Shown: one piece after another, positions 8,030 through 31,202 of the stretch
Layout: each line of letters begins with the position of its first letter
Numbering within the stretch: the first letter of the stretch is position 1
NCBI GenBank assembly: GCA_013414765.1
Contig: CP058708.1
Coordinates: 1,917,553 to 1,981,552 of the forward strand
Reading direction: 5' to 3'
DNA: 64,000 nucleotides
Origin: Candidatus Accumulibacter cognatus
GTDB lineage: Bacteria; Pseudomonadota; Gammaproteobacteria; Burkholderiales; Rhodocyclaceae
The notes under the pieces: generated by a model
Database searches by the model: none
The model's input: only the letters and a program-made list of their open reading frames with translations
What the model was told of the DNA's origin: nothing
Translations under genes and position numbers: made by a program

Positions 8030-8548
8030 CTACCATGGCGTCCACTCTGTCTGCACCGGCAATTCGAGCCACTTGCCAATCGTGTCGGCAATCTCCTCGA
8101 TCTCCGCTTTTGAATAGCCAAAGAGCAAATCCATTGCGCGCCCCGTTTCGTTAAGTCGGGCATAGTACAAATAAGAGCCCCCATTTCTGCTTTCGGCATC
8201 CTGAAACTCCCGGTATCGTAAGGAGATTACTCCCGCCCCAGAAGCCCGGCAGAAACGAGCCGCAAGCTGCCATACGCGACCAAAAACGCGATGGGCAGAA
8301 CTGATCCTACGTGAAGAACGGTCTATGTGCAGTATTTGCTCTCCTGTCAACAGGTAGAGCCCAAAGACAAGAACACCGACAATGCTTAAGACATGCACGA
8401 GGACGGGAATATCCCCAGATCCGGTCACCATACCGACCGCACCGAACAAGCCCGAGAAAAGGATGAGGACCTTGCCCGCATGGCGTGCAAGGATTGGAAA
8501 TGGTTTTCGGATCTCCAGAAGGTTTTTCGAAGGGTAGAATAGTTCCAT
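8030..8548 (-). CDS. Small membrane protein of unknown function
   Basis: 172 residues from the ATG at 8548 (AAAGG ribosome binding site 6 bp before it); an upstream in-frame ATG at 8587 lies in IS-derived DNA. Two hydrophobic segments at about residues 26-42 and 48-66 suggest a membrane hairpin. The C-terminal half is soluble, with RVFGRVWQLAARFCRASGAG and YSKAEIEEIADTIGKWL. I do not recognise the family. It lies alone between ybiB and an IS1182 remnant, whose 3' end runs into its upstream region. Confidence 0.55.
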   Translation of the reverse strand: MELFYPSKNLLEIRKPFPILARHAGKVLILFSGLFGAVGMVTGSGDIPVLVHVLSIVGVLVFGLYLLTGEQILHIDRSSRRISSAHRVFGRVWQLAARFCRASGAGVISLRYREFQDAESRNGGSYLYYARLNETGRAMDLLFGYSKAEIEEIADTIGKWLELPVQTEWTPW

Positions 8549-8988: not shown

Positions 8989-11900
8989 ATGCGGCGACGT
9001 GCGGGGTGGTGGGCAAGGATTGTACAGGTCATTATGCTGCTGGCGGTGGCGCTGGTGGTAGGTGCGGCAGGTACGCCGCAGGTGGAGCGTTTTACTCCGC
9101 AGGGTCAGGCGAAGGGCGTGCGCCAAGTGGCCGTGCGCTTTTCCGAGTCTATGGTTGCTTTCGGCGACCCGCGGCTGGCCGATCCCTTCAGCGTGAAGTG
9201 CGAAGGCGATCCCGAGCGCACCCAGGGGCGTGGCCGCTGGGCCGACCAGAGGAACTGGATCTATGACTTCGCTGCCGACCTGCCGGCAGGTCAGCGCTGC
9301 CGCTTCACACTGAACGCGGGTGTCAAGTCTGCAGCCGGGACTGCATTGGCGGGCAAGCGGGAGTTCACGTTCGACACCGGTGGCCCGGCGGCAATGTCTT
9401 CGCTCCCCGGCGAGGGAGAAGAAGACATCGATGAAGAGCAGATCTTCCTGCTTGCTTTCGATGCACCGCTCGACCCGGCGAGCTTTGCCGGTGCCTGGTG
9501 CGAAGCGGACGGGATCAACGAACAGATTCCGCTCAAGCTGCTGCCGGAAAAGGAAACCCGTGAATTGCTCACGGCCAACCGGGACAATGCGTTCAACCTG
9601 TTCAGGCTATATTTCCCGGATGGCCATGATTTCTCCATCGGCAAGCTGAAGGTCGAGGACAAACGCTTCCGCGATCTGCCGGTGGCCGGCGCGAAATGCG
9701 CGCGGCGGCTGCCGGCCGGTGCGCAGGTGTCCATCGTGATCGGCCCCGAGGTGAAATCGAAGACCGGTCTTGCGCGCGGGGCGCCGCAGCGTCTCAAGTT
9801 CCGGGTGCGGCCCGATTTCGTGGTCGACCTGACTTGCCAGCGCGTCAAAAAGGATGCGGCCTGTCTGCCGATCACACCAATCATGCTGGCATTCAACGCG
9901 CCGGTGCCGCGCGCAGCGGCGGCGGGCATCCGGTTGAAAAGCGAACCCGGGCAGACCTTCGAACCGGTGTTGGAGCCGCACGTCAAGACCGTTGACAGCG
10001 TCGAGTTCCGCGGCCCGTTCCCGGAAAAGACCCGGTTCACCGTCGAACTGCCGCGCGGCTTCAAGGATGATGCCGGCCGCGAACCGAAGAACAAGGCATC
10101 CTTCCCGCTGCCCACGGCCACCGACGAGCACCCGCCGCTCGTCAAGTTTCCGGGCCGCTTCGGTATCCTCGAACTGAAGGCCGAGCCGGTGTTGCCGGTG
10201 ACGGTACGCAATGTGGAGCCCACGCTGGCCGGGCAGACGATCGCGTTGCCGGCGACCGCTGCTGTTCCCGGCCGCTCGCTGCGCCTCGCCAACGACGAGA
10301 CGCAGATCATGCAGCGACTGCAGCGCTTCCTGAACAAGGAATCGGAGTACTTCGACCGGCTGCGCGGTGAGAACCGCCCCTATCCGCGCGAGGGCGAAAT
10401 CTCGGCCATCCGGGAGGGCGACCAGGCGACCGCCTTCGAGCTGCCGCGCGCTGGCGGCGACAAGCCGATGGATGTGATCGGCATTCCGCTGCCGAAGCCG
10501 GGGTTTTACATCGTGGAGCTGGCAAGCCCACGCCTCGGGCGCGCACTGCACGATGCGGAGAAGCCTTATTACGTGTCGACCAGCGTGCTCGTCACGAACC
10601 TTGCCGTGCACCTCAAACATGGCCGTGAAGGGTCGCTGGTCTGGGTAACCGCGCTCGACAACGGCAGACCGGTGGCCGAAGCAAAGGTCAGCGTGCGCGA
10701 CTGCACGGGCCGGGCCTGGTTCACGGGCACCACCGATGCGAACGGCATTGCCCGGGCAGGCGACCAGCTGCCTTTCGCGCAGGACGTTGCGAGGTGCGGC
10801 GACTACCGGCGCGCGCTGGTGGCGTTCGCGCGCGTGGGCGAAGACCTGTCGTTCACGTATTCGGACTGGAACGAGGGCATCCAGCCGTGGAATTTCAACC
10901 TGCGCCACAACGCCGACCGCAGGACGCCGCTGTCCATCCACACGGTGTTCGACCGCACGCTGTTCCGCGCCGGCGAGACGGTCAGCATGAAGCATGTCGC
11001 GCGCGTGCCGGTCAGTGCCGGTTTCCGCGTTCCAAGCAATGCCGAATTGCCGTCCGCGATCGAGATCGAACATCTTGGCAGTGGCCAGAAATACAAGCTC
11101 ACCACGCACTTCGACGACCAGGGCGTGGCCGACGGTACCTGGAAGATTCCGCCCGAGGCAAAGCTCGGCAGCTACCGGCTCAACTGGCCAGGGCGTGCCA
11201 TCCAGGGACAGGCCGAGTTCCGCGTGGAAGCGTTCCGCGTGCCGCTGATGCGTGCTGCACTCGCCGCACCGAAAGAGCCGTTGATCCGCCCATCGGCGGC
11301 CAAGCTCGACGCGGCGGTGAATTACCTTTCTGGCGGTCCTGCCTCCGGCCTGCCGGTGAAGGTGCGCCATCGGATCGAGAACCGCGGGGTGTCGTTCGCG
11401 AGTTACCCCGGGTTCCGTTTCGATAGCGAACCCCTGCAGGAAGGAATCGTCATCGGCTCGTCCACCGACGCCTTCGGTACCTACGATCCTGACGAGGACG
11501 GCGGTGCTCCCGGCAACCAAAGCGCGGGCCCCACGGCCGCACGCACATTGACGCTCGATGGCGCCGGCACAGCGGCGATTTCGATTGACCAGCTCGCACC
11601 GGTCGTTCGGCCTGCCAGTCTGTTCGTCGAGATGGAATATAACGATCCGAATGGCGAACGCCTGGCCGTCGCAACCCGCGTCGCCTTGCATCCGGCAGCG
11701 CTTTACCTCGGCCTCAAGCCAGACGGCTGGGTGGCCAACAAGAACGGCGTGCGGGTGCAGGTGGTGGCGCTCGATCCGGCCGGCAAACCGCTCGCCAGCC
11801 AAGCGGTGCGGGTCGATCTCTACGAGCGCAAGAGCTTTTCCAGCCGGCGGCGTTTGATCGGCGGCTTCTACGCTTACGAATCGACGACCGAAACGAAAAA

Positions 11901-21279: not shown

Positions 21280-21298
21280 AGAAGGGTTTTCCGGAACG

Positions 21299-21413
21299 GA
21301 TCAGGGGCCGGCAAAGCCGCTACAATCAGGGGGTGGGTCTGACCAGATACTCCGACATTCTAGTCATGCCTACCGACTGTTGGCAAAAGTCTCCCTGCGC
21401 TGGCCACCTCTGA
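21299..21413 (+). repeat. Left boundary repeat of island (copy of glnE-yhdP intergenic DNA)
   Basis: About 115 bp, roughly 90 % identical to 31090-31202. It begins GATCAGGGGCCGGCAAAGCC and ends GGCCACCTCTGA. It starts 20 bp upstream of glnE. The right copy ends at the yhdP start codon. It contains TACAAT (21321-21326), equivalent to a possible yhdP -10 box in the right copy. Confidence 0.85.
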
Positions 21414-21430
21414 AAAAGCCGTGCCGCCTC

Positions 21431-21463
21431 TTGACGGTGACCACTTTGAAGACTATGGTCACC
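21431..21463 (+). promoter_or_regulatory. Promoter with overlapping inverted-repeat operator for the TA operon
   Basis: TTGACG (21431-21436) and TATGGT (21454-21459) form a sigma-70 promoter with 17-bp spacing. The inverted repeat GGTGACC (21436-21442) / GGTCACC (21457-21463) overlaps both boxes. Such a site is expected for autorepression by an antitoxin dimer. Confidence 0.65.
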
Positions 21464-21490
21464 AATATGGTTAATCGATTGGACTGTACC

Positions 21491-21721
21491 ATGCCGACAA
21501 TTCAAGCTTCCGAATTCAAAGCCAAGTGCCTTGCCTTGATGGACGAGGTCGCCAGCAAGGGCGAAATCTGGGTCGTGACAAAGAACGGCCGCCCGATCGC
21601 CGAGTTGCATCCGTACCGCGGTGGACGTTCCACCTCACCCTTCGGCTTGCACCCCAAACTCGAAATATCCGGCGACATTGTCGAACCGCTCGATGAGGTC
21701 GAATGGAAGGCGCTGGCGTGA
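21491..21721 (+). CDS. Type II antitoxin, Phd/YefM family
   Basis: 76 residues starting MPTIQASEFKAKCLALMDEV, the typical Phd/YefM fold, in which an N-terminal DNA-binding sheet/helix begins with an xxxxASEFKAxCL motif. TKNGRPIAELHP follows, then a C-terminal toxin-binding tail with DEVEW. It should neutralise the PIN toxin encoded next and repress the operon at the operator just upstream. The start is at 21491; ATGs further upstream lie in the promoter. Its stop overlaps the toxin GTG by 4 bp, giving translational coupling. Confidence 0.88.
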   Translation: MPTIQASEFKAKCLALMDEVASKGEIWVVTKNGRPIAELHPYRGGRSTSPFGLHPKLEISGDIVEPLDEVEWKALA

Positions 21722-22119
21722 TCGTTCTCGACACCCACGCCCTGCTCTGGATGGATCGGGATGACCCGGCTCTCGGCCCGTTCGCGCGGTGCCTGATCGA
21801 AGATGTCTGGCGCGCAGGTCAAGTCGCCGTGAGTGCCATCAGCTTTTGGGAGGCGGCCATGCTCGCGCAGCGCGGGCGTATCGTGCTGCCCCTTCCAGCG
21901 ACAGAATGGCGTTCCGAGCTGCTACAGGCCGGCCTTCGGGAATTCGCGCTGGATGGCCGCATCGGCATCCTCGCCACCCAACTGGAAAACATGCACCGTG
22001 ACCCCGCCGACCGTTTCATCGTGGCTACTTCGTTGCAACACCAGGCAACGCTGATCACAGCCGACGTGAGCATACTGGCGTGGGCATCGCATTTGCCGCG
22101 ACAGGATGCGCGCTTGTGA
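21718..22119 (+). CDS. Type II toxin, PIN-domain VapC-like ribonuclease
   Basis: 133 residues from the GTG at 21718. VIVLDTHALLW carries the first PIN acidic residue (Asp5), SAISFWEAAML the conserved Glu, and DPADRFIVATS with LITAD the remaining acidic cluster. VapC toxins cleave RNA, often tRNA or rRNA, in a Mg-dependent way. Paired by a GTGA overlap with the Phd-like antitoxin. All catalytic acids appear present, so the pair is probably functional. It sits just inside the left edge of the island. Confidence 0.9.
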   Translation: MIVLDTHALLWMDRDDPALGPFARCLIEDVWRAGQVAVSAISFWEAAMLAQRGRIVLPLPATEWRSELLQAGLREFALDGRIGILATQLENMHRDPADRFIVATSLQHQATLITADVSILAWASHLPRQDARL

Positions 22120-22212
22120 CGACCGGAGCACATCCTTCTCGCAGCGACCGCTGTGCCAAGCCGGTCGTCTCAGGGGATGGAGGGAAGCACCGGAGGAAGC
22201 GATCCACCATTG

Positions 22213-22724
22213 AGCCGCATGCAACGTCTGGGCGCTGCTGCTCGTGCCGATCGATGAGTTTTTTCCGCTCGTCTGTCCACACTACGGCGGCGAGATGCGA
22301 ATCATCGCCTTCATCACCGACGCCGGTGCCGTCCGCGAGATCCTGAGCCATCTGGGCGAACCGACCTCGCCGCCACGTCTGATGAAAGCCCCTGCGCCCC
22401 CGCTCTGGGAGAGGCAGGGCGCCACTCTGGGCGAGGACGAATCGCAGCCCCAATCGGCGCCGAAGTACGAATTCGACCGGCGCATTGCCGGGTAGGTGCC
22501 AATGCGCAAGGGTCCAGACTGAAGCAAGACGAGTGGTCATCGCTCGTGCTGGGAGGACTCATGCCTGTGGCCATCCGCCCGGCCGGGCGGATGGCCACAG
22601 GCACTGAGCGGGGCCGGATTCGCATGACTTTTCAGAGGCTTCCGGGTCCAAATGCGAGGTTGACGCTGCTTGATGAAGGCTCATATACTTTCAATCTGTC
22701 GGTGTCGTTGGATTTCCTATCCTT
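22213..22724 (+). mobile_element. IS91-family 3' end, left copy (transposase C-terminus plus terminal region)
   Basis: An open frame without a proper start, 22213-22495, reads ACNVWALLLVPIDEFFPLVC then MRIIAFITDAG, LSHLGEPTSPPR and PPLWE, ending YEFDRRIAG and stop. This is the C-terminal tail of IS91-type (HUH/Y2) transposases; the catalytic HUH and Tyr parts are absent. The 3' non-coding part carries a 42-bp perfect palindrome. Positions 22300-22724 are repeated almost exactly at 30668-31087, in the same orientation. Confidence 0.8.
22562..22603. repeat. 42-bp perfect palindrome in IS91-type end, left copy
   Basis: Two 21-bp arms with no spacer: TGCCTGTGGCCATCCGCCCG plus G, followed directly by the exact reverse complement. 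It lies 67 bp after the transposase-tail stop. Hairpins near the ends are a feature of IS91-type rolling-circle elements. Confidence 0.9.
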
Positions 22725-22839
22725 GCTTTGACGACGTCGCCGCGGAGACGACTGGAAGCTCTACGGAAGAGACGGAACAGGCTTCACCGGCCGATAGCCA
22801 GCTGCCATAGATCTTGCCGTTCGGGGAGGAATCATTTCT

Positions 22840-24840
22840 TTGTTAAAGATCAGCGGGGTGCTTGTCGTCTGCTGGTTGATGTTGGCCGGCTGCATGCCGC
22901 AGCGCGCCCAGGTCACGATGCTGCAAGCGCCTGAGATTGCGGCGGCAGCCGCCTACAAGTCGATTTCGGTGGCCCGTTTTTCCGGGCAGTATGGCGATAG
23001 CGTGGCGCTGGCCATGGAAAGCGAGATGATCAACGCGCGTGTTCAGGACAAGCCCGTTTACCGCTCGGTGAGCCGCGCACCCGAGGGGCGCTCGCTCGCT
23101 GGCGACAACCGCTCTTTAGCCAGTACAGCGCGTTCCCAGGGAAGCGAAGCGATTCTTGTCGGTGAGGTGATTCTGGCTAACGTCCAGGATCGACGCAGCA
23201 GCACGACGCAGTTCATCTGCGATCAAGCGGCCAACCCGAAGAAACTTGTCAGCAAGTGCGTTTCTGGTCGCAACGTCACCGTTCCTTGTCTTTCCCGTAG
23301 CGCCAGCATGCAGGTTCAAGTCCGGCTGATCGATGCGAAAACCGGCAACACCGTTTTCAGTCAGGCGATTGCCAAAGACGCCAGCAGCGAGGCCTGCGGT
23401 AACGACTCGCCGGCGGATGGCGGCGTGCTGCTAGGCAAAGCGCAGGCGGCGGTTGTCGACGAAGTCATGCGCAAAATTGTTCCCCACGAGCGCCGCATGG
23501 CGATTTCGCTGATGGACCCCGATGACCAGATTCGCTCGCCGGCCAACAAGGAGCGCTTTGCCGGCGCGATCAAGTTCGCCACTGGCGGACGCATGGACCG
23601 TGCCTGCGAGATGCTGCGTGAAGTTTATGAGCAAGAGAGAGAATCGGTAGCGCTCAACTATGACCTTGGCGTTTGCGAGGAGGCGGCGGGGGCTTTCTGG
23701 AAGGCGAACGAGCACTACCGGATCGCCGACCGCCTGACCAATGCGCCAAACACCCTGATTACCGCCGCGTTGGCGCGCAACGAGCAGAACATCAAGAAAG
23801 CGGGGGCGATGGCCAACGTGCGCTCGGACCTCTTGAAAACCGACCGCATTGAGGCCGGCGCTGCGCCGCAAACGATCAACCAGCCCGGCTCTCGGCCATT
23901 TGTTCAGCAGCCTCCGCCGAGGCCGCCGACGAACATCAGTCCCGATGATCTTTTTATCGGCCAGCGCAGCGCCTTGGTGATTGGCAACGCGAAGTACCGG
24001 CGCGGCGCGCTGCAAAACCCCGTCAACGACGCGCGCGCCATGACTGCCGAGTTGCGGAAAGCGGGCTTCCAGGTCATCGCCGTCGAAGACGCCGGGCTCG
24101 ACCGCCTCCAGGCGGCGATCGACGAGTTCGGCAGAGCGATCAAACCTGGCGGCGCGGCTCTAGTTTTTTACGCCGGACACGGCATGCAGGTCGGCGGTGA
24201 AAACTACCTGATCCCCGTGGACGCCGACCTCAAGCGAGAGACCGACGTGCAGGCGAAGACACTCAATTTGGCGGCGATTCTCAGAAAACTCGAAGACTCG
24301 CAATCGCGGGTCAATGTTGTCATCCTGGACGCCTGCCGTGATAACCCATTTGCGCGATCGTGGCGTTCAGCGGGCAGAGGGGGTCTTGCCTCGATCGACG
24401 CGCCGACCGGGACAGTCATCGCTTTCGCCACGGCGCCAGGCAAGACAGCCGAGGACGGCGCTGGCAGCAACGGCCTATTCACGACGCATCTGTTGCGACA
24501 AATCAGAATCCCCAATCAGAAGATCGAGGACGTCCTCAAGAACACTCGCAAGGGCGTCGCCGCAGATTCCCGCAACGAGCAGATTCCATGGGATTCTTCG
24601 TCGCTGACCGGCGACTTCTATTTCAAGGTCAGCAACTCTGCCATGAGCCCCAAGCCTGCTATTGTGGCAGCGGAAGAAGCTCCCGCAGAAGCCGCGACGC
24701 TGGCTAGGAGAAACCTGACCGTCAATGATCAACAAGCCGTGACTCACGACAATCCGCCAGCACAAGCCGCTTCTTCTGACGGGGGTTCGCTCGGTGGCTT
24801 GTTCAACTCGCTCAAGGGGCTTTTTCGGCCGATCGATTGA
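22840..24840 (+). CDS. Caspase-like lipoprotein with CsgG/LpoB-like N-terminal region
   Basis: 666 residues. TTG start with strong GGGGAGGA site 9 bp upstream. A lipoprotein signal ends LMLAGC (Cys18). Residues about 38-180 (YKSISVARFSG, SEAILVGEV, VRLIDAKTGNTVFSQ) resemble the CsgG/LpoB fold; about 240-310 is TPR-like (MLREVYEQE, VALNYDLGVCEEAAG). A Pro-rich linker leads to a C14 caspase p20 domain (376-590) with ALVIGNAKY, catalytic His447 in FYAGHGMQ and Cys499 in VILDACRDNPF. It should be exported and lipid-anchored; substrates are unknown. A lipoprotein gene at 26237 was probably its operon partner before the ISAzo13 insertion. Confidence 0.88.
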   Translation: MLKISGVLVVCWLMLAGCMPQRAQVTMLQAPEIAAAAAYKSISVARFSGQYGDSVALAMESEMINARVQDKPVYRSVSRAPEGRSLAGDNRSLASTARSQGSEAILVGEVILANVQDRRSSTTQFICDQAANPKKLVSKCVSGRNVTVPCLSRSASMQVQVRLIDAKTGNTVFSQAIAKDASSEACGNDSPADGGVLLGKAQAAVVDEVMRKIVPHERRMAISLMDPDDQIRSPANKERFAGAIKFATGGRMDRACEMLREVYEQERESVALNYDLGVCEEAAGAFWKANEHYRIADRLTNAPNTLITAALARNEQNIKKAGAMANVRSDLLKTDRIEAGAAPQTINQPGSRPFVQQPPPRPPTNISPDDLFIGQRSALVIGNAKYRRGALQNPVNDARAMTAELRKAGFQVIAVEDAGLDRLQAAIDEFGRAIKPGGAALVFYAGHGMQVGGENYLIPVDADLKRETDVQAKTLNLAAILRKLEDSQSRVNVVILDACRDNPFARSWRSAGRGGLASIDAPTGTVIAFATAPGKTAEDGAGSNGLFTTHLLRQIRIPNQKIEDVLKNTRKGVAADSRNEQIPWDSSSLTGDFYFKVSNSAMSPKPAIVAAEEAPAEAATLARRNLTVNDQQAVTHDNPPAQAASSDGGSLGGLFNSLKGLFRPID

Positions 24841-24937
24841 TCCTCCCCTCGGGCGATTCAACTTAGGTGATTTCCTCATTTTTCTATACCTTTGTGTGCG
24901 ATACTTAGAGTAGATTCTGAGTGGAGGGATGTTAGGG

Positions 24938-25516
24938 ATGAAGCTCGGTACTGATGAAGGAAGTCACGTTCGTCTCGAGGCCAGTCACCTGGAAGATATC
25001 CAACTTGCTTCGAGCAAGATGACGGGTGCGGACCGCCGGGCGTTTCAGGCGGAGATGGCGTTGAAGTACTGTGGCGGCAATCCTCGACGCGCGGAGGACG
25101 TCTTCGGATGGAGCCGGAAGGCGGCGCAGCTTGGCTTGCACGAGAAGCGTAGCGGGATGGTTTGTTTGGGGCATCACCAGTTCTGCTGCGGAGCCAAATT
25201 GTGGGAAGAGAAGCACCCGGAGGTGGCACAGGCCCTCTGGGCAGTGGCACGCAGCCATTCCCAACAGGATCCGACCTTTCGCCCGACGCTGTCGTTCACC
25301 CGCTTGACGGCCGAGGAAGCGATCAAGCAGTTGCGGGCGCAAGGATTTGCCGAGGACGTGCTGCCCTCCAGGAGCTGCATGTCGGAAGTGTTGAACCGTA
25401 ATGGGTACCGGCTGCGTCCGGTGATCAAGGCCAAACCCCAAAAAAAGTCCCCGAAACCGACGCCATCTTTACCAACATCCAGCGACAGGACCGGGCTTGC
25501 GAAGGCAAAGCCGTGA
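24938..25516 (+). CDS. ISAzo13-family transposase, upstream frame
   Basis: Encodes the N-terminal DNA-binding part: MKLGTDEGSHVRLEASHLED, MTGADRRAFQAEMALKYCGG, a helix-turn-helix around NPRRAEDVFGWSRKAAQLGL, and NRNGYRLRPVIKAKPQKK. The ATG at 24938 is preceded by GGAGGG at a good distance; an ATG at 24929 touches that site. At 25441-25447 the slippery heptamer A AAA AAG lies in the correct phase for -1 slippage, after which the frame stays open to 26169. The fused product would be about 410 residues, a normal length for the family. Codons after 25447 in this frame are not protein-like. Confidence 0.85.
   Translation: MKLGTDEGSHVRLEASHLEDIQLASSKMTGADRRAFQAEMALKYCGGNPRRAEDVFGWSRKAAQLGLHEKRSGMVCLGHHQFCCGAKLWEEKHPEVAQALWAVARSHSQQDPTFRPTLSFTRLTAEEAIKQLRAQGFAEDVLPSRSCMSEVLNRNGYRLRPVIKAKPQKKSPKPTPSLPTSSDRTGLAKAKP
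25441..25447 (+). promoter_or_regulatory. Programmed -1 frameshift site A AAA AAG
   Basis: Seven-base slippery heptamer in the X XXY YYZ phase relative to the upstream frame (codons CAA AAA AAG). Slippage by -1 continues as GTC CCC GAA ACC, which reads VPETDAIFTNIQ, the family-like continuation. Confidence 0.75.
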
Positions 25517-26169
25517 TGCGCTTGAGCATCGACTGCAAGGCGACGGTGAAGATTGGCGAGTACTCGCGAGGCGGCCAGACGCGGGGCGACCCTAAAGCGG
25601 CCGACCACGATATGGGATGCGAGGAAAAACACCCCCCGTTTGGCGTGGTCAACGAAGACAGCGGACAACTGCACCTGTCCTTCGGAAGCTCGGCCAAGAC
25701 CAGCGATTTCCTCGTCGACAGCCTCTACGCCTGGTGGAAGTGTCAATCGCCAAAGGAGCAGGCTCGTGTCACGGACCTGCAGATCAAGACCGATAACGGG
25801 CCGGAGAGCAGCGGCCGACGCACCCAAGTCCTCAAGCGAATGGTCGAGTTTGCCGATCACACCGGCAAGTCCATCCACCTTCTGTACTATCCGCCCTACC
25901 ACAGCAAATACAATCCCGTCGAGCGTTGCTGGGGAATCCTCGAAAAGCACTGGAACGGCGCCAAACTGACCGATACGCAAACGATGCTCGAGTGGGCCAA
26001 GAGCATGACCTGGAAAGGGCTTCATCCCATCGTCGAGTTGAGCCGCACAGCCTATCAGAAAGGAGTTTCCCTCGGCAAAGACGCCATGCAAGCTGTCGAA
26101 TCCAGACTGGAACGAAACCCGCTTCTACCCAAGTGGGACATCTTGATCCGACCGGCTTGCTTGGTATAA
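25513..26169 (+). CDS. ISAzo13-family transposase, downstream (catalytic) frame
   Basis: The catalytic DDE domain: LSIDCKATVKIGEYSRGG (first Asp), LQIKTDNGPESSGRRTQ (second Asp) and YPPYHSKYNPVERCWGILEK (Glu), all three present. The frame is open from the slippery site at 25447, so this is the C-terminal half of a fusion transposase. An ATG at 25513 could also allow separate translation. With both halves and ends present the element may still be active. Confidence 0.88.
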   Translation: MMRLSIDCKATVKIGEYSRGGQTRGDPKAADHDMGCEEKHPPFGVVNEDSGQLHLSFGSSAKTSDFLVDSLYAWWKCQSPKEQARVTDLQIKTDNGPESSGRRTQVLKRMVEFADHTGKSIHLLYYPPYHSKYNPVERCWGILEKHWNGAKLTDTQTMLEWAKSMTWKGLHPIVELSRTAYQKGVSLGKDAMQAVESRLERNPLLPKWDILIRPACLV

Positions 26170-26236
26170 GGATTTGCGGAGATCACCTTAACTCTGGACC
26201 GCCATTTTTTGGCGGGTAGTCGAGAAAGGTCTCGTT

Positions 26237-27160
26237 GTGATCAGGAAGAGTTTGCGTCTGACCGCCTTGCTGTCGATGTTGTTGGCAGTGGTCGCGTGCG
26301 CACCGGCGCTAACGTTTAACTTGGGCACCCGCGACGAGATCATCGATACGCTGCAAAGTGGCAGCATCCGGCTCGAATGCACACTCCCTTGCGCATGGAC
26401 TTGGGGCAACGAGCGGGCACGTCTGCGCACGCTTGACGCCAGCGGCAACTGGGAAAGCCTGGCCATCGAAGTCGCGCAAATCGGGTACCAGAAGGACCTC
26501 GCGTATTACTACCTGGGTCGTGCCGCCGAAGGGCTCGGCCATCGCGACGCCGCTCGGCGCTATTACTACGAAAGTTACGCGCTGGCCACTGGCAGCCAAT
26601 CTGGCCCAAAATGTCGTAGCGTTGCTGACGACTGCAACGGTGTCGACTTACTGGCGATTTTGCCGATGAAGCTCAACCCGCCGGGAGCGGCAAATTCATC
26701 AGCACTGAAACCCGGCGTGCCGACAACAGTCGTTACCACGACAAAAAACGAGAATATGGCAATATCAAAATACATTTCCAGAAAAGCTTCTGCGACTGGC
26801 TCAACAGAGTACGAGGAAGCTCGCACTGTTGTTACCGGCGCGAGAGATGACGAAGGTGCATTTGGACTGGCGGTGACGTACACGCTTGAAAGAGGAAATT
26901 CGTCTGACTTTTACCTCGCCGCTTTCGTTAGTAGGAAAGGGAAGTTGGAACTTCTCGGGGACGCACAAGTGGGCAACAGATGTAGCAGATTCGTTACTCT
27001 GAGAAAAATTGAGGGTTCAACGATTAGTCTTGATTTTGAAGAACATTCACAACAAGACGCTTGTTGTTGCCCGAGTCGGAAAGGGACGACACAATTCATA
27101 CTTTCTGGGAATGGCGAGAAAAAAGCCTTGAGGGAAGTACGCAAAACCTATTTCAAGTAG
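26237..27160 (+). CDS. Putative lipoprotein of unknown function
   Basis: 307 residues, GTG start after AGAAAGG. Signal peptide with lipobox AVVAC (Cys21). About residues 48-120 contain TPR-like helices (DLAYYYLGRAAEGLGHRDAA followed by RRYYYESYALA). The second half (about 160-307) is Ser/Thr-rich and beta-like, with a CCC cluster near residue 276. The second half and the following 80 bp are visibly poorer in GC than the first. I do not recognise the family. Removing the ISAzo13 insertion would place it about 67 bp after the caspase lipoprotein gene, so the two probably formed one operon. Confidence 0.75.
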   Translation: MIRKSLRLTALLSMLLAVVACAPALTFNLGTRDEIIDTLQSGSIRLECTLPCAWTWGNERARLRTLDASGNWESLAIEVAQIGYQKDLAYYYLGRAAEGLGHRDAARRYYYESYALATGSQSGPKCRSVADDCNGVDLLAILPMKLNPPGAANSSALKPGVPTTVVTTTKNENMAISKYISRKASATGSTEYEEARTVVTGARDDEGAFGLAVTYTLERGNSSDFYLAAFVSRKGKLELLGDAQVGNRCSRFVTLRKIEGSTISLDFEEHSQQDACCCPSRKGTTQFILSGNGEKKALREVRKTYFK

Positions 27161-27366
27161 TTTGGTTGGGCGTTTTTTAGTATATTGGCATACTCTCGGA
27201 AATTCTATCCCACAGGCTGATATTCCTGGTGATTGGCGAGCACTCCCTCATTTCCCACCCTTCCTCATGCCGCAGGCGCAATTTGCCCTAGCAGCCTGTC
27301 GGACTTTACCCTTGCCGCCCGCTGAATATGCTACAATCATAGCCGTTCCAGGAACGGAGGTCCGGC

Positions 27367-28725
27367 ATGTCCCATTTCATCGTCACCGATCGCAAGACCG
27401 ACTACCTGCTGCCGCCGTCACTCGACGATTGGTTGAACGAGGATCATTTGGCGCGATTCATTGTGGAGGTGATCGACTCGCTTGATTTGTCGAAGCTGAC
27501 GCGGCAGTACGCTGGACGGGGATCGAAGGCGTACCATCCGGCGACGCTGCTGGCCATTCTGGTCTATGGCTACGCGACGGGTATTTTCTCCAGCCGCAGG
27601 CTGGAGCAGGCGACCTACGATTCGGTCGCCTTTCGCTACATTGCCGCCGGCAGCCATCCCGATCACGACAGCCTGGCGACGTTCCGCCGGCGTTTTCTGG
27701 AGGAACTGAGCGACTTGTTCGTGCAGGTTCTGGAGATGGCCCGGGAGATGAAGCTGCTGAAACTGGGCAATGTCTGTCTTGACGGCACGAAGATTCAGGC
27801 CAACGCCTCCCGCCACCGTGCGCTTTCGCACGGCCACATCGAAAAGCTGGAAGCGCAACTCAAGGCGGAGGTGCAGGAACTGTTCGCGCTGGCCGAACAG
27901 GCGGATCAGGCGGAGGTTCCGGACGGCGTCAGCCTGCCGGAAGAAATCAAGCGCCGCGAAGATCGGCTGGTGGCGATGGCGGCGGCCAAGGCGAAGATTG
28001 CGGCGCGGGCCGAGGAGCGCTATCAGCGAGAGAAGGCGCAGTACGACGAGAAGATGGCGCGGCGCAAGGCGAAAGAAGAAGAGACCGGCAGGAAGTGGGG
28101 GGGCAGAGTGCCCAAAGCCCCCGAGCCCGGCGTACGGGACAGTGACCAGATCAATCTGACCGACGAAGAATCGCGCATCATGCCGGTGGCCGGTGGCGGC
28201 TTCGAGCAGGCGTACAACGCCCAGGCGGCGGTTGATCCCGCGACCCTGCTGGTGGTGGCGGTCGGCGTGACGCAAGCCCCCAACGACAAGGAGCAGGTCG
28301 AGCCGATGCTGGCGACGCTCCAGGCGCAGGCCGATGGGCTGGGTTCCGTGCACGGGATGATCGCCGACACGGGCTTCTACAGCGAGAAGAACATCAAGGC
28401 GTGCGAGGCGGCCGGCATCGTCCCCTTGATCGCGGTGGCGCGCGACGAGCACCATCCTGACTGGCGGGAGCGGCATAGCGAACCGGCCGCGCTACCGGAG
28501 AATGCGACACCCGTGCAGGCCATGTCGCATCGTTTGAAGACCAGAGCGGGGCGAGCGCTCTATGCGTTGCGCAAGCAGACCGTCGAGCCGGTCTTCGGCA
28601 TCATCAAGTCGGTCATGGGCTTTCGCCAGTTTTCCTTGCGGGGTTGGCAGAAGGTCACCGGGGAATGGATGCTGGTCTGCCTGGCGTGGAATTTGAAGCG
28701 CATGGCCAAGTTGCGCCCGCAGTAG
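27367..28725 (+). CDS. IS1182-family transposase
   Basis: 452 residues starting MSHFIVTDRKTDYLLPPSLD. N-terminal DUF772-type domain (YHPATLLAILVYGYATGIFSS), then the DDE domain with CLDGTKIQA (Asp), MIADTGFYSE (Asp) and QTVEPVFGIIKSVMG (Glu). A long charged coiled-coil insertion lies between the first and second Asp (about 160-250). Start ATG after GGAGGTCCGGC. All catalytic residues are present and both ends are perfect, so it is likely active. Confidence 0.95.
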   Translation: MSHFIVTDRKTDYLLPPSLDDWLNEDHLARFIVEVIDSLDLSKLTRQYAGRGSKAYHPATLLAILVYGYATGIFSSRRLEQATYDSVAFRYIAAGSHPDHDSLATFRRRFLEELSDLFVQVLEMAREMKLLKLGNVCLDGTKIQANASRHRALSHGHIEKLEAQLKAEVQELFALAEQADQAEVPDGVSLPEEIKRREDRLVAMAAAKAKIAARAEERYQREKAQYDEKMARRKAKEEETGRKWGGRVPKAPEPGVRDSDQINLTDEESRIMPVAGGGFEQAYNAQAAVDPATLLVVAVGVTQAPNDKEQVEPMLATLQAQADGLGSVHGMIADTGFYSEKNIKACEAAGIVPLIAVARDEHHPDWRERHSEPAALPENATPVQAMSHRLKTRAGRALYALRKQTVEPVFGIIKSVMGFRQFSLRGWQKVTGEWMLVCLAWNLKRMAKLRPQ

Positions 28726-28747
28726 AGAAAAACGAGGAAAAAACCTC

Positions 28748-28783
28748 AAAAAGGCCGGAAAATCGACAAATTCCGGCCTTTTT
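28748..28783. terminator. Bidirectional terminator inside IS1182
   Basis: AAAAAGGCCGGAA (28748-28760) and TTCCGGCCTTTTT (28771-28783) form a perfect 13-bp stem with a 10-base loop. The T-run on each strand fits rho-independent termination both ways, 23 bp after the transposase stop. Confidence 0.85.
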
Positions 28784-29015
28784 CATGCCGAAAAGTAAAA
28801 TTTGTCGGTTTCCCGGGCTCCAAGTCCGACAGGCTGCTAGGGACAGGAACGTCCGCCGTACCGCAAACGGCAGGATAATCCGGGGAAAAGCGCGCAAAAA
28901 GGGTAGATCCAGGCCGAACCGCTAGTCAAGACATGCATTCAGCATACTTCGCCCCAGGCTGGCGCCGGCGTCCGGTCGCGCCGATTGTGGCGCAGAAGTA
29001 AATAGATCACAGCCT

Positions 29016-30335
29016 CTGAGCCGGCTCCAGCAGGGCTGGCTGAGTTTCTGCCTGACTGGGCTGTTGCTGACGGGGAGCCTGAACTGGTCGGCCTTCGAAC
29101 GTATGGGCCTGGGCCGCTACCGTATTAGCGCTCTGTCGTGGATGTTTGGCTGTGGCCAATGGCTGTGATTGAAACTGCTCCAGACCAGTGTCTCTCTTCT
29201 TCTGCGCCGGTTCCACCTCAAGCGCGGCGTCTTGGTGGACGATGACACGGACCACCGCCGGGCGAAGAAGCCCCTCCGGATCTACGGCGCCTATAAGATA
29301 TTCGACAAGAAGACCGGCGGCTATTTCAACGGGCAATGCGTGATGTTTCTCCTGCTGGTGACCGATCTGATCACCTTACCGGTGGGCGGGTGTTTTTACC
29401 GGCCGGACCCGCGGCAACAGGCGTGGAAAAAAGAGAAGGCGCGGCTGATCAAGGCCGGCGTCAAGACTGCTGACCGGCCGAAACCGCCGCATGCCGACCC
29501 CGACTATCCGGACAAGGTGAGCCTTGCTCTTTCGCTGATCGACACCTTTTGCCAGAGCCATCCTGATTTCACTGTCCAGGCGGTGCTGGCCGATGCCGCC
29601 TTTGGCCACCAGGCCTTCATGGACGCCGCCTGTGCCAGGGCCGGATGTCGTCAGACCATCAGCCAGTTGCATGCTGATCAACTCGTGCTGTTCAGAAACA
29701 GGGAGAGGCCGGTCCAGGACTATTTCGCCAGGCATCAGGGCACGCTGCAAACGCTTGCGCTGCGAGGTGGGGAGTCCGTCCAATTGTGGATCAACAGTGC
29801 CCGCCTGAAGGTCAAGGCGCATGGCACGAAGCGTTTCGTGATGGCGGTCAAGCGCGTTGATGAAGCGCAATACCGCTATTGGGTGGCGACTGACCTGTCC
29901 TGGCGAACACTTGATCTCGTGGGTTGCTATACGTTCAGGTGGCGGGTGGAAGTTTTCCTGGAGGACTGGAAGCTTTATGAAGGATGGGCAGGCTTGGCCA
30001 AACAGCCGGACGAAGACGGGTCAGTCCGAGGGTTGATCCTGAGCCTGCTGCTAGACCATGCTTTGCTCATCCACCCCGAGCAACGTGCCCGCCTGGAAAA
30101 CAGGGGACCCGCGTGCACCGTGGGCAGCCTGAAGCAAGCCGCCTGTGCCGAAGCCATCATGCAGTTTGTCCGGAAAATTCTCGCCGCCGCAGAACCTGCA
30201 CGAATGCTTGATGAACTGGCTGAAAAACTCAGGACGCTGTTCCCCTTGGCGCCTTCGGGAAAACACATGAGCGGGCGGGATCTCGGCCGACTGGAACCTT
30301 CGGCCTCACTCCGCTATCGTGCCGCTGCTCCATAA
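29016..30335 (+). pseudogene. IS4-like transposase, interrupted by an in-frame stop
   Basis: The frame upstream of 29166 reads LSRLQQGWLSFCLTGLLLTG then RYRISALSWMFGCGQWL, followed by a TGA at 29166-29168, then continues in the same frame to 30335 (LKLLQTSVSLLLRRFHLKRG, VLVDDDTDHRRAKK). The DDE residues are in LVDDDTDHR, VLADAAFGHQ and YTFRWRVEVFLEDWK (the IS4-type R-x-E). Only the remainder downstream of the stop could be made, from a TTG at 29169 (388 residues). No true N-terminal start is evident, so it is probably inactive. Confidence 0.8.
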
Positions 30336-30336
30336 C

Positions 30337-30476
30337 TTCGACAATGCCAGCATGAAAACTTGAATATCGAGTCAGCCGCGTCTGGAGGGCGATCTCCGAG
30401 TACCGCCCAGGGGAGCCGCGCCCCTCCGGGGGGGCGGAGGGGTCAGTGGTCCTGAAGGCTTTCTTTCATTGTCGAA
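30337..30476. repeat. 140-bp element with 10-bp inverted ends and a central hairpin
   Basis: TTCGACAATG (30337-30346) is matched by CATTGTCGAA (30467-30476). Between them lies a second stem, CCCCTCCG (30421-30428) with CGGAGGGG (30435-30442). No open frame. It starts 2 bp after the transposase pseudogene stop, so it may be that element's end or a separate MITE-like insertion. Confidence 0.5.
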
Positions 30477-30667
30477 CCAGATCGTCAAATTGCCGCGGTT
30501 GACCAGCGCTCGGTCGTACTCCGATCAGTTCGTCACCCGATACCGCTGCTTCTGCCCCACCTCGCCTGTCTCCGGCTTCACCCGTATGACCATCTCGCAC
30601 CTCCTCTTGCCGCCAAACCCCGCACTCCGAGTGCTCATGTCAATATACTACATACTACACCAACGCC

Positions 30668-31087
30668 AATCATCACCTTCATCACCGACGCCGGTGCCGT
30701 CCGCGAGATCCTGACCCATCTGGGCGAACCGACCTCGCCGCCACGTCTGATGAAAGCCCCTGCGCCCCCGCTCTGGGAGAGGCAGGGCGCCACTCTGGGC
30801 GAGGACGAATCGCAGCCCCAATCGGCGCCGAAGTACGAATTCGACCGGCGCATTGCCGGGTAGATGCCAATGCGCAAGGGTCCAGACTGAAGCAAGACGA
30901 GTGGTCATCGCTCGTGCTGGGAGGACTCGTGCCTGTGGCCATCCGCCCGGCCGGGCGGATGGCCACAGGCACTGAGCGGGGCCGGATTCGCATGACTTTT
31001 CAGAGGCTTCCAGGTCCAAATGCGAGGTTGACGCTGCTTGATGAAGGCTCATATTCTCTCGTTGATACCGTTGGATTTCCTATCCTT
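30668..31087 (+). mobile_element. IS91-family 3' end, right copy
   Basis: Near-identical to 22300-22724 in the same orientation. It encodes only the last part of the transposase tail (IITFITDAG to YEFDRRIAG, stop at 30861-30863) and the 3' terminal region with a 44-bp palindrome. The two copies differ by scattered substitutions and a 5-bp length difference near the end. It ends 3 bp before the right boundary repeat. Confidence 0.8.
30929..30972. repeat. 44-bp perfect palindrome in IS91-type end, right copy
   Basis: Two 22-bp arms with no spacer, starting GTGCCTGTGGCCATCCGCCC and ending with the reverse complement. One base pair longer than the left copy, where the outer pair is mismatched (A/C). 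Confidence 0.9.
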
Positions 31088-31089
31088 CT

Positions 31090-31202
31090 GATCAGGGGCC
31101 GGCAAAGCCGTTACAATCATGGGTTGTCTGACCAGATACTCCGATATTCTAGTGACGCCTACCGACTGTTGGCCAAAGTCTCCCTGCGCCGGCCACCTCT
31201 GA
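31090..31202 (+). repeat. Right boundary repeat of island, with yhdP upstream DNA
   Basis: Partner of 21299-21413. It runs from GATCAGGGGCCGGCAAAGCC to the yhdP ATG at 31202 and includes TACAAT at 31112-31117, a possible yhdP -10 box without a clear -35. It is probably the ancestral glnE-yhdP spacer. Confidence 0.85.

Follow-up and report, generated by a model that had tools for sequence, protein, structure and literature searches.

How did two nearly identical, truncated ends of an IS91-type element come to bracket a block of cargo genes between glnE and yhdP? The question is raised by a 64,000-nucleotide stretch of the Candidatus Accumulibacter cognatus genome (the window, to which nucleotide coordinates refer). 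An initial annotation had described two near-identical copies in the same orientation, each with a spacerless perfect palindrome, in an island lacking a complete IS91 transposase. The two copies, R1 and R2, and their parts are as follows.

22157-22724, forward strand: R1, a 5'-truncated IS91-type right end (repeat, BLAST and tblastn comparison)
22244-22495, forward strand: C-terminal tail of an IS91-type transposase, 83 amino acids in frame, with a broken frame extending upstream (tblastn)
22562-22603, no strand: R1 palindrome, perfect, 42 nt, no spacer, 118 nt from the terminus (palindrome search)
22660-22689, forward strand: R1 outward sigma-70-like promoter, TTGACG-N18-TATACT, 10/12 consensus, 0.0 expected in shuffles
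22713-22724, forward strand: right terminus, TTTCCTATC followed by CTT (alignment of right ends)
30665-31087, forward strand: R2, a second 5'-truncated IS91-type right end (repeat, BLAST and tblastn comparison)
30929-30972, no strand: R2 palindrome, perfect, 44 nt, no spacer, 112 nt from the terminus (palindrome search)
31028-31057, forward strand: R2 outward promoter-like site with TATTCT as its -10, 9/12 consensus

The description of the two copies proved accurate. R1 (22297-22724) and R2 (30665-31087) are 96% identical across 428 bp in BLAST, and a repeat search recovers 22297-22596 and 30665-30964 as direct copies at 98%; the final ~35 bp diverge and the remainder is nearly identical. R1 extends ~140 bp to the left of the R2 match, reaching about 22157, and in tblastn it covers residues 158-275 of a 275-amino-acid relative, of which R2 covers residues 197-275. 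Each copy combines a transposase tail, a perfect 42-44-bp palindrome and the common terminus. No complete transposase frame was found in either by open reading frames and protein alignment, and the island holds only the C-terminal part of the protein. R1 and R2 are remnants or non-autonomous ends, rather than full members of the IS91 family. They are mutually closest in the genus (96%, versus 86% for the best other copy), and the next best tail copy in their own genome is only 84% identical to them, so their likeness is far above chance.

The assignment of these repeats to the 3' (ori) ends of an IS91-type element is borne out by a linked transposase. The R1 tail is 69.5% identical in amino acids over 118 residues (E 4e-49, tblastn) to the transposase of locus L191 in Ca. 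Accumulibacter contiguus, which carries the same tail. Pieces of that protein match Zn_Tnp_IS91 (PF14319) and Y2_Tnp (PF04986), both over the cut-off, and also the NCBIfam IS91 and ISCR clade Ia models, below the whole-protein cut-offs. ISCR_clade_Ia is the best-scoring model, with 134 and 88 bits on two partial pieces against a whole-protein cut-off of 925. The A. cognatus genome itself has Y2_Tnp matches at 13 places and, at 4164.9-4166.2 kb, a degraded full-length transposase gene upstream of the same tail, encoding a zinc finger, an HUH-like motif (HFHCLVIEGVF) and the C-terminus. No intact transposase of the R1/R2 subfamily was found there. An intact matching transposase at 1760 kb was considered and rejected: the 900 bp downstream of it contain no right end of this kind, and the CCTATCCTT motif does not occur on the transposase strand of this 6.5-kb locus.

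The A. cognatus genome has 24 copies of the tail, and 24 of 27 congeners carry it too; among 73 further genomes searched, only two gave marginal matches. The same TTCCTATCCTT end is also found in other Betaproteobacteria, ~150-300 bp past the transposase match. The family also occurs at other sites, where the DNA flanking it on each side differs. Many copies keep only the terminal 60-130 bp, as might be expected if the palindromes belonged to an unrelated repeat family with no transposase, but that reading has almost no probability, because the same tail accompanies IS91-type transposase genes in several genomes and refutes it. The sequence comparisons thus support the view that R1 and R2 are right ends of an IS91/ISCR-like family spread through Accumulibacter. 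This places in the genus a mostly decayed IS91-type family whose hairpin is maintained and which carries an outward promoter.

The anatomy of this right end is well defined. In this and other Accumulibacter genomes, 90 distinct right ends share a single end point, TTTCCTATC (the family terminus is also given as TTTCCTATCCTT). CTT follows in 67 of the 90, and the sequences diverge thereafter. Given that the empty site described below lacks CTT, these three nucleotides belong to the element; for the same reason, CTTG after TATC was ruled out as a target. The hairpin is kept in 26 right ends, 108-135 bp inside the terminus and mostly at 111-113 bp, and seven of its pair positions show compensatory double changes among 16 anchored copies. 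Some more distant relatives have a hairpin of unrelated sequence at a similar place and others have none. The promoter lies between hairpin and terminus, points outward and is conserved in the family. Promoter and terminus, searched as one pattern, give 22 matches in Accumulibacter genomes and none in the searched genomes of other genera or in the reversed control. The R end may act as an outward promoter. Exaptation of this promoter was also judged from the orientation of downstream genes and dropped, since co-directional genes follow 57 of 89 ends and 287 of 498 random positions, a difference that is not convincing.

The position of the island can be read from its borders.

21294-21297, forward strand: GAAC tetranucleotide bordering the insertion point on the left, a known IS91/IS801 target motif (GGAC in the G026 empty site)
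21299-21413, forward strand: A, left copy of duplicated native glnE-yhdP intergenic sequence, 91% identical to 31090-31202
31090-31202, forward strand: A', right copy, directly upstream of yhdP (repeat search, comparison with G026)

G026, a relative whose yhdP is 94% identical, has an empty site, with a single A between glnE and yhdP (...GGGACTGATCAGGGGCC...CATCTGATGCGG), and this makes the island junctions readable. In the window glnE is contiguous with A on the left and A' is contiguous with yhdP on the right, so the 113-bp boundary repeat duplicates native target DNA. The boundary repeats therefore lie outside the mobile DNA and are duplicated glnE-yhdP intergenic sequence. R2 adjoins the right repeat, as annotated, to within 2 nt. 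A was also considered as a dispersed repeat, which is ruled out by its having only two copies in the genome. At one site A and A' have in common a state that is absent in G026 and G019 (Ca. Accumulibacter contiguus), a faint hint that they arose by local duplication. GAAC, GGAC, CAAG and CGAC are target motifs of IS91 and IS801 (PMC3189936); among the few empty sites available, the tetranucleotide at the cut is GAAC in the window, GGAC in G026 and CAAT in the L191 case. Separately, the region upstream of yhdP (31090-31202; L090-L113) contains a block that is strongly conserved across Accumulibacter species, GGCAAAGCCGTTACAATG ... GACATTCTAGTGACGC..ACCGACTGTTGGCAAAAGTCTC.

Among the copies examined, the long duplication has one clean parallel. 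At L191 (G019:C80), a second 5'-truncated IS91 copy, its transposase cut within the zinc finger and its right end precise, has the same layout with a 315-bp target duplication (8120-8433 and 10015-10327 in reverse-complement coordinates, 90% identical), for which the empty site was recovered in part only. The 315-bp repeat is unrelated in sequence to the 113-bp repeat. Boundary repeats starting within 8 nt of the position were found at 2 of 88 right ends, compared with 1 of 1829 positions picked at random in the same DNA (p about 0.006, our own estimate), and the remaining ends among the 88 lack a long target duplication. Two further candidates were set aside, L198 as ambiguous (its repeat is 79% identical) and L222 because it sits in repetitive coding sequence. 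We know of no target duplications by IS91-family insertion, and we read the 113- and 315-bp duplications as an aberrant left-end event, unlike a normal target-site duplication.

Long direct repeats on both borders could also suggest that the genomic island is site-specific, using 113-bp attachment repeats and carrying the IS91 ends as passengers. We consider this very improbable: no integrase was seen among the island open reading frames (Pfam/NCBIfam), the repeat starts 2-5 nt from the R2 terminus and stops at the toxin-antitoxin (TA) junction, and the R copy at L191 stands in the same relation to an unrelated 315-bp repeat.

Between these borders, the island contains the following in addition to R1 and R2.

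21414-22156, forward strand: TA segment, with a Phd/YefM-type antitoxin (21491-21721) and a PIN toxin (21703-22119) (Pfam)
22729-22811, forward strand: 83-bp fragment resembling an IS66-type transposase coding region, between R1 and the caspase gene (86% to G000 1270577, within a 527-aa open reading frame; IS66 call by eye)
22840-24840, forward strand: caspase (Peptidase_C14) lipoprotein gene, cargo (Pfam E 1e-38)
24865-26190, forward strand: nested ISAzo13-family insertion sequence, frame broken (Pfam/NCBIfam; left end repeated elsewhere in the genome)
26237-27160, forward strand: predicted lipoprotein, cargo (open reading frame; no confident Pfam match)
27284-28841, forward strand: nested IS1182-family insertion sequence, transposase 27367-28725, right limit approximate (NCBIfam E 5e-111)
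29169-30335, forward strand: degenerate IS701/IS4-like transposase (NCBIfam)

The coordinates place the TA genes between the left boundary repeat and R1, as had been noted. The TA segment is 92% identical in nucleotides to sequences in two other Accumulibacter species (G015 and G013), against only 73-76% identity for yhdP, which indicates a recent transfer between species. The matches in both start exactly where A ends, and that in G015 ends where R1 starts; the TA segment was thus captured from another Accumulibacter species, with transfer probably into the A. cognatus genome. The left end of the IS1182-family element (27284-27360) occurs at 13 other sites in the genome with 97-100% identity, so this element was recently active. 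An 81% relative of the caspase gene is present in G008 and begins just past a sequence resembling the R promoter and terminus (L153, G008:C22; TTGACC-N18-TATACT...TTTTCTATCCTT); this promoter-terminus beats all 2000 shuffles, and its BLAST match is not significant.

Whether R ends tend to occur in pairs bears on how R1 and R2 came to flank this cargo. Among about 18 R-type copies in the complete genome (our own count of tail and Y2_Tnp matches), five neighbouring pairs lie less than 10 kb apart, where 0.58 pairs would be expected (P about 1e-4), and three of them are direct (P 0.002). Paired direct ends around cargo are thus more frequent than chance would give. The earlier suggestion that two direct ends would be left by repeated one-ended events or tandem circles is not established for this island, where circle recombination and one-ended mobilisation look alike in the sequence. 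The pair excess, together with the mutual closeness of R1 and R2, supports duplication or recombination at R, besides or instead of independent insertion. A separate pair of R-like ends at L219 (G013:C93, positions 1675 and 3185), 1.5 kb apart and with similar right flanks, may represent an IS91-type element duplicated in tandem.

It is unlikely that R1 (before the caspase gene) and R2 (before yhdP) were inserted independently at different times. Each does end cleanly on the right, with different DNA beyond, and the R-like promoter ahead of the G008 caspase relative points faintly the same way, but the closeness of the two copies would be unexpected when other copies in the genome reach at most 84%, and A and A' would be left unexplained. 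A possibility to be taken more seriously, if still a doubtful one, is that a small TA-R unit first settled upstream of yhdP and that a circle carrying cargo and one R end was then integrated through homologous recombination at R, to give R-cargo-R in direct orientation. In this case R1 and R2 should be mutually closest, as they are (96% versus 86% at best in the genus), R2 would lack the 5' part of R1 as expected if the left half were circle-derived, and the two copies differ in their last ~35 bp and are otherwise nearly identical. However, the donor R must then have matched the resident one almost exactly, and the caspase/lipoprotein cargo with a single R end was not found in the relatives searched.

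We think it fairly probable that the 9.8-kb TA-R1-cargo-R2 segment was inserted by a one-ended event whose displaced left joining copied 113 bp of target. The segment would have entered the native gap between glnE and yhdP at GAAC. R2 would form its precise right end, and its left end, at the TA segment, would be imprecise and would have been joined 113 bp downstream of the nick. On the assumption that R2 acted as the right end, the right border (TATCCTT/CTGATC) is precise, the left one before the TA genes (CTGA/AAAAGCC) is random, and 113 bp of target stand on both sides. The direct repeat R1-cargo-R2 may have been present in the mobilised DNA or have formed later by recombination at R, and ordinary insertion sequences would have invaded the cargo afterwards. 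For IS801, one-ended transposition that leaves truncated left ends has been documented (PMC3189936). Counting against the one-ended insertion, a long duplication is present at only 2 of 88 ends and the genome holds no intact transposase of the subfamily; the closeness of R1 and R2 is accounted for by recombination no less well than by one-ended transport. The rolling-circle step, the route of duplication and the order of events are all deduced from the arrangement of the DNA as it stands today.

Based on the two cases, we propose that one-ended events may close their left end at a displaced position. More speculatively, and more likely wrong than right, one-ended IS91 transposition might end with the free 3' end of the transferred strand annealing to target downstream of the nick and priming synthesis. 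Such an ending would leave the ori side precise, truncate the left side at random and duplicate ~100-300 bp of target, as a bacterial counterpart to 5'-truncated insertions that carry long target duplications. If long target duplication is general, it would show how the left end is closed in one-ended rolling-circle events, in gene capture driven by IS91 and ISCR elements. The event is otherwise essentially of a known type, the capture of DNA by IS91/ISCR remnants, and the long duplication is the sole unusual point of ordinary IS91 biology.

The family can be compared with known rolling-circle elements. A hairpin near the 3' end and the capture and mobilisation of host DNA are features of Helitrons (PMC4778049), and to that extent the Accumulibacter element resembles them; it differs in being bacterial, in having no helicase domain and in carrying its hairpin at the ori end, ~112 bp inside the terminus. 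With ISCR elements it shares the best-scoring model on the linked transposase and outward promoters in the ori end, which are functional in ISCR1 (POUT; PMC6218425). In contrast, the transposase reaches 134 bits against the cut-off of 925, scored on partial proteins, and no association with 3'-CS or resistance genes was seen. Unlike IS91 and IS801, the Accumulibacter right end has a hairpin with arms of up to 26 bp and an outward promoter, and two copies show the 113- and 315-bp target duplications. What it has in common with them is a zinc-finger and Y2 HUH transposase (in linked relatives), the lack of terminal inverted repeats, a conserved right end with variable 5'-truncated left ends, and, at the window site, GAAC at the target; IS801 likewise gives rise to right-end fragments through one-ended transposition (PMC3189936).
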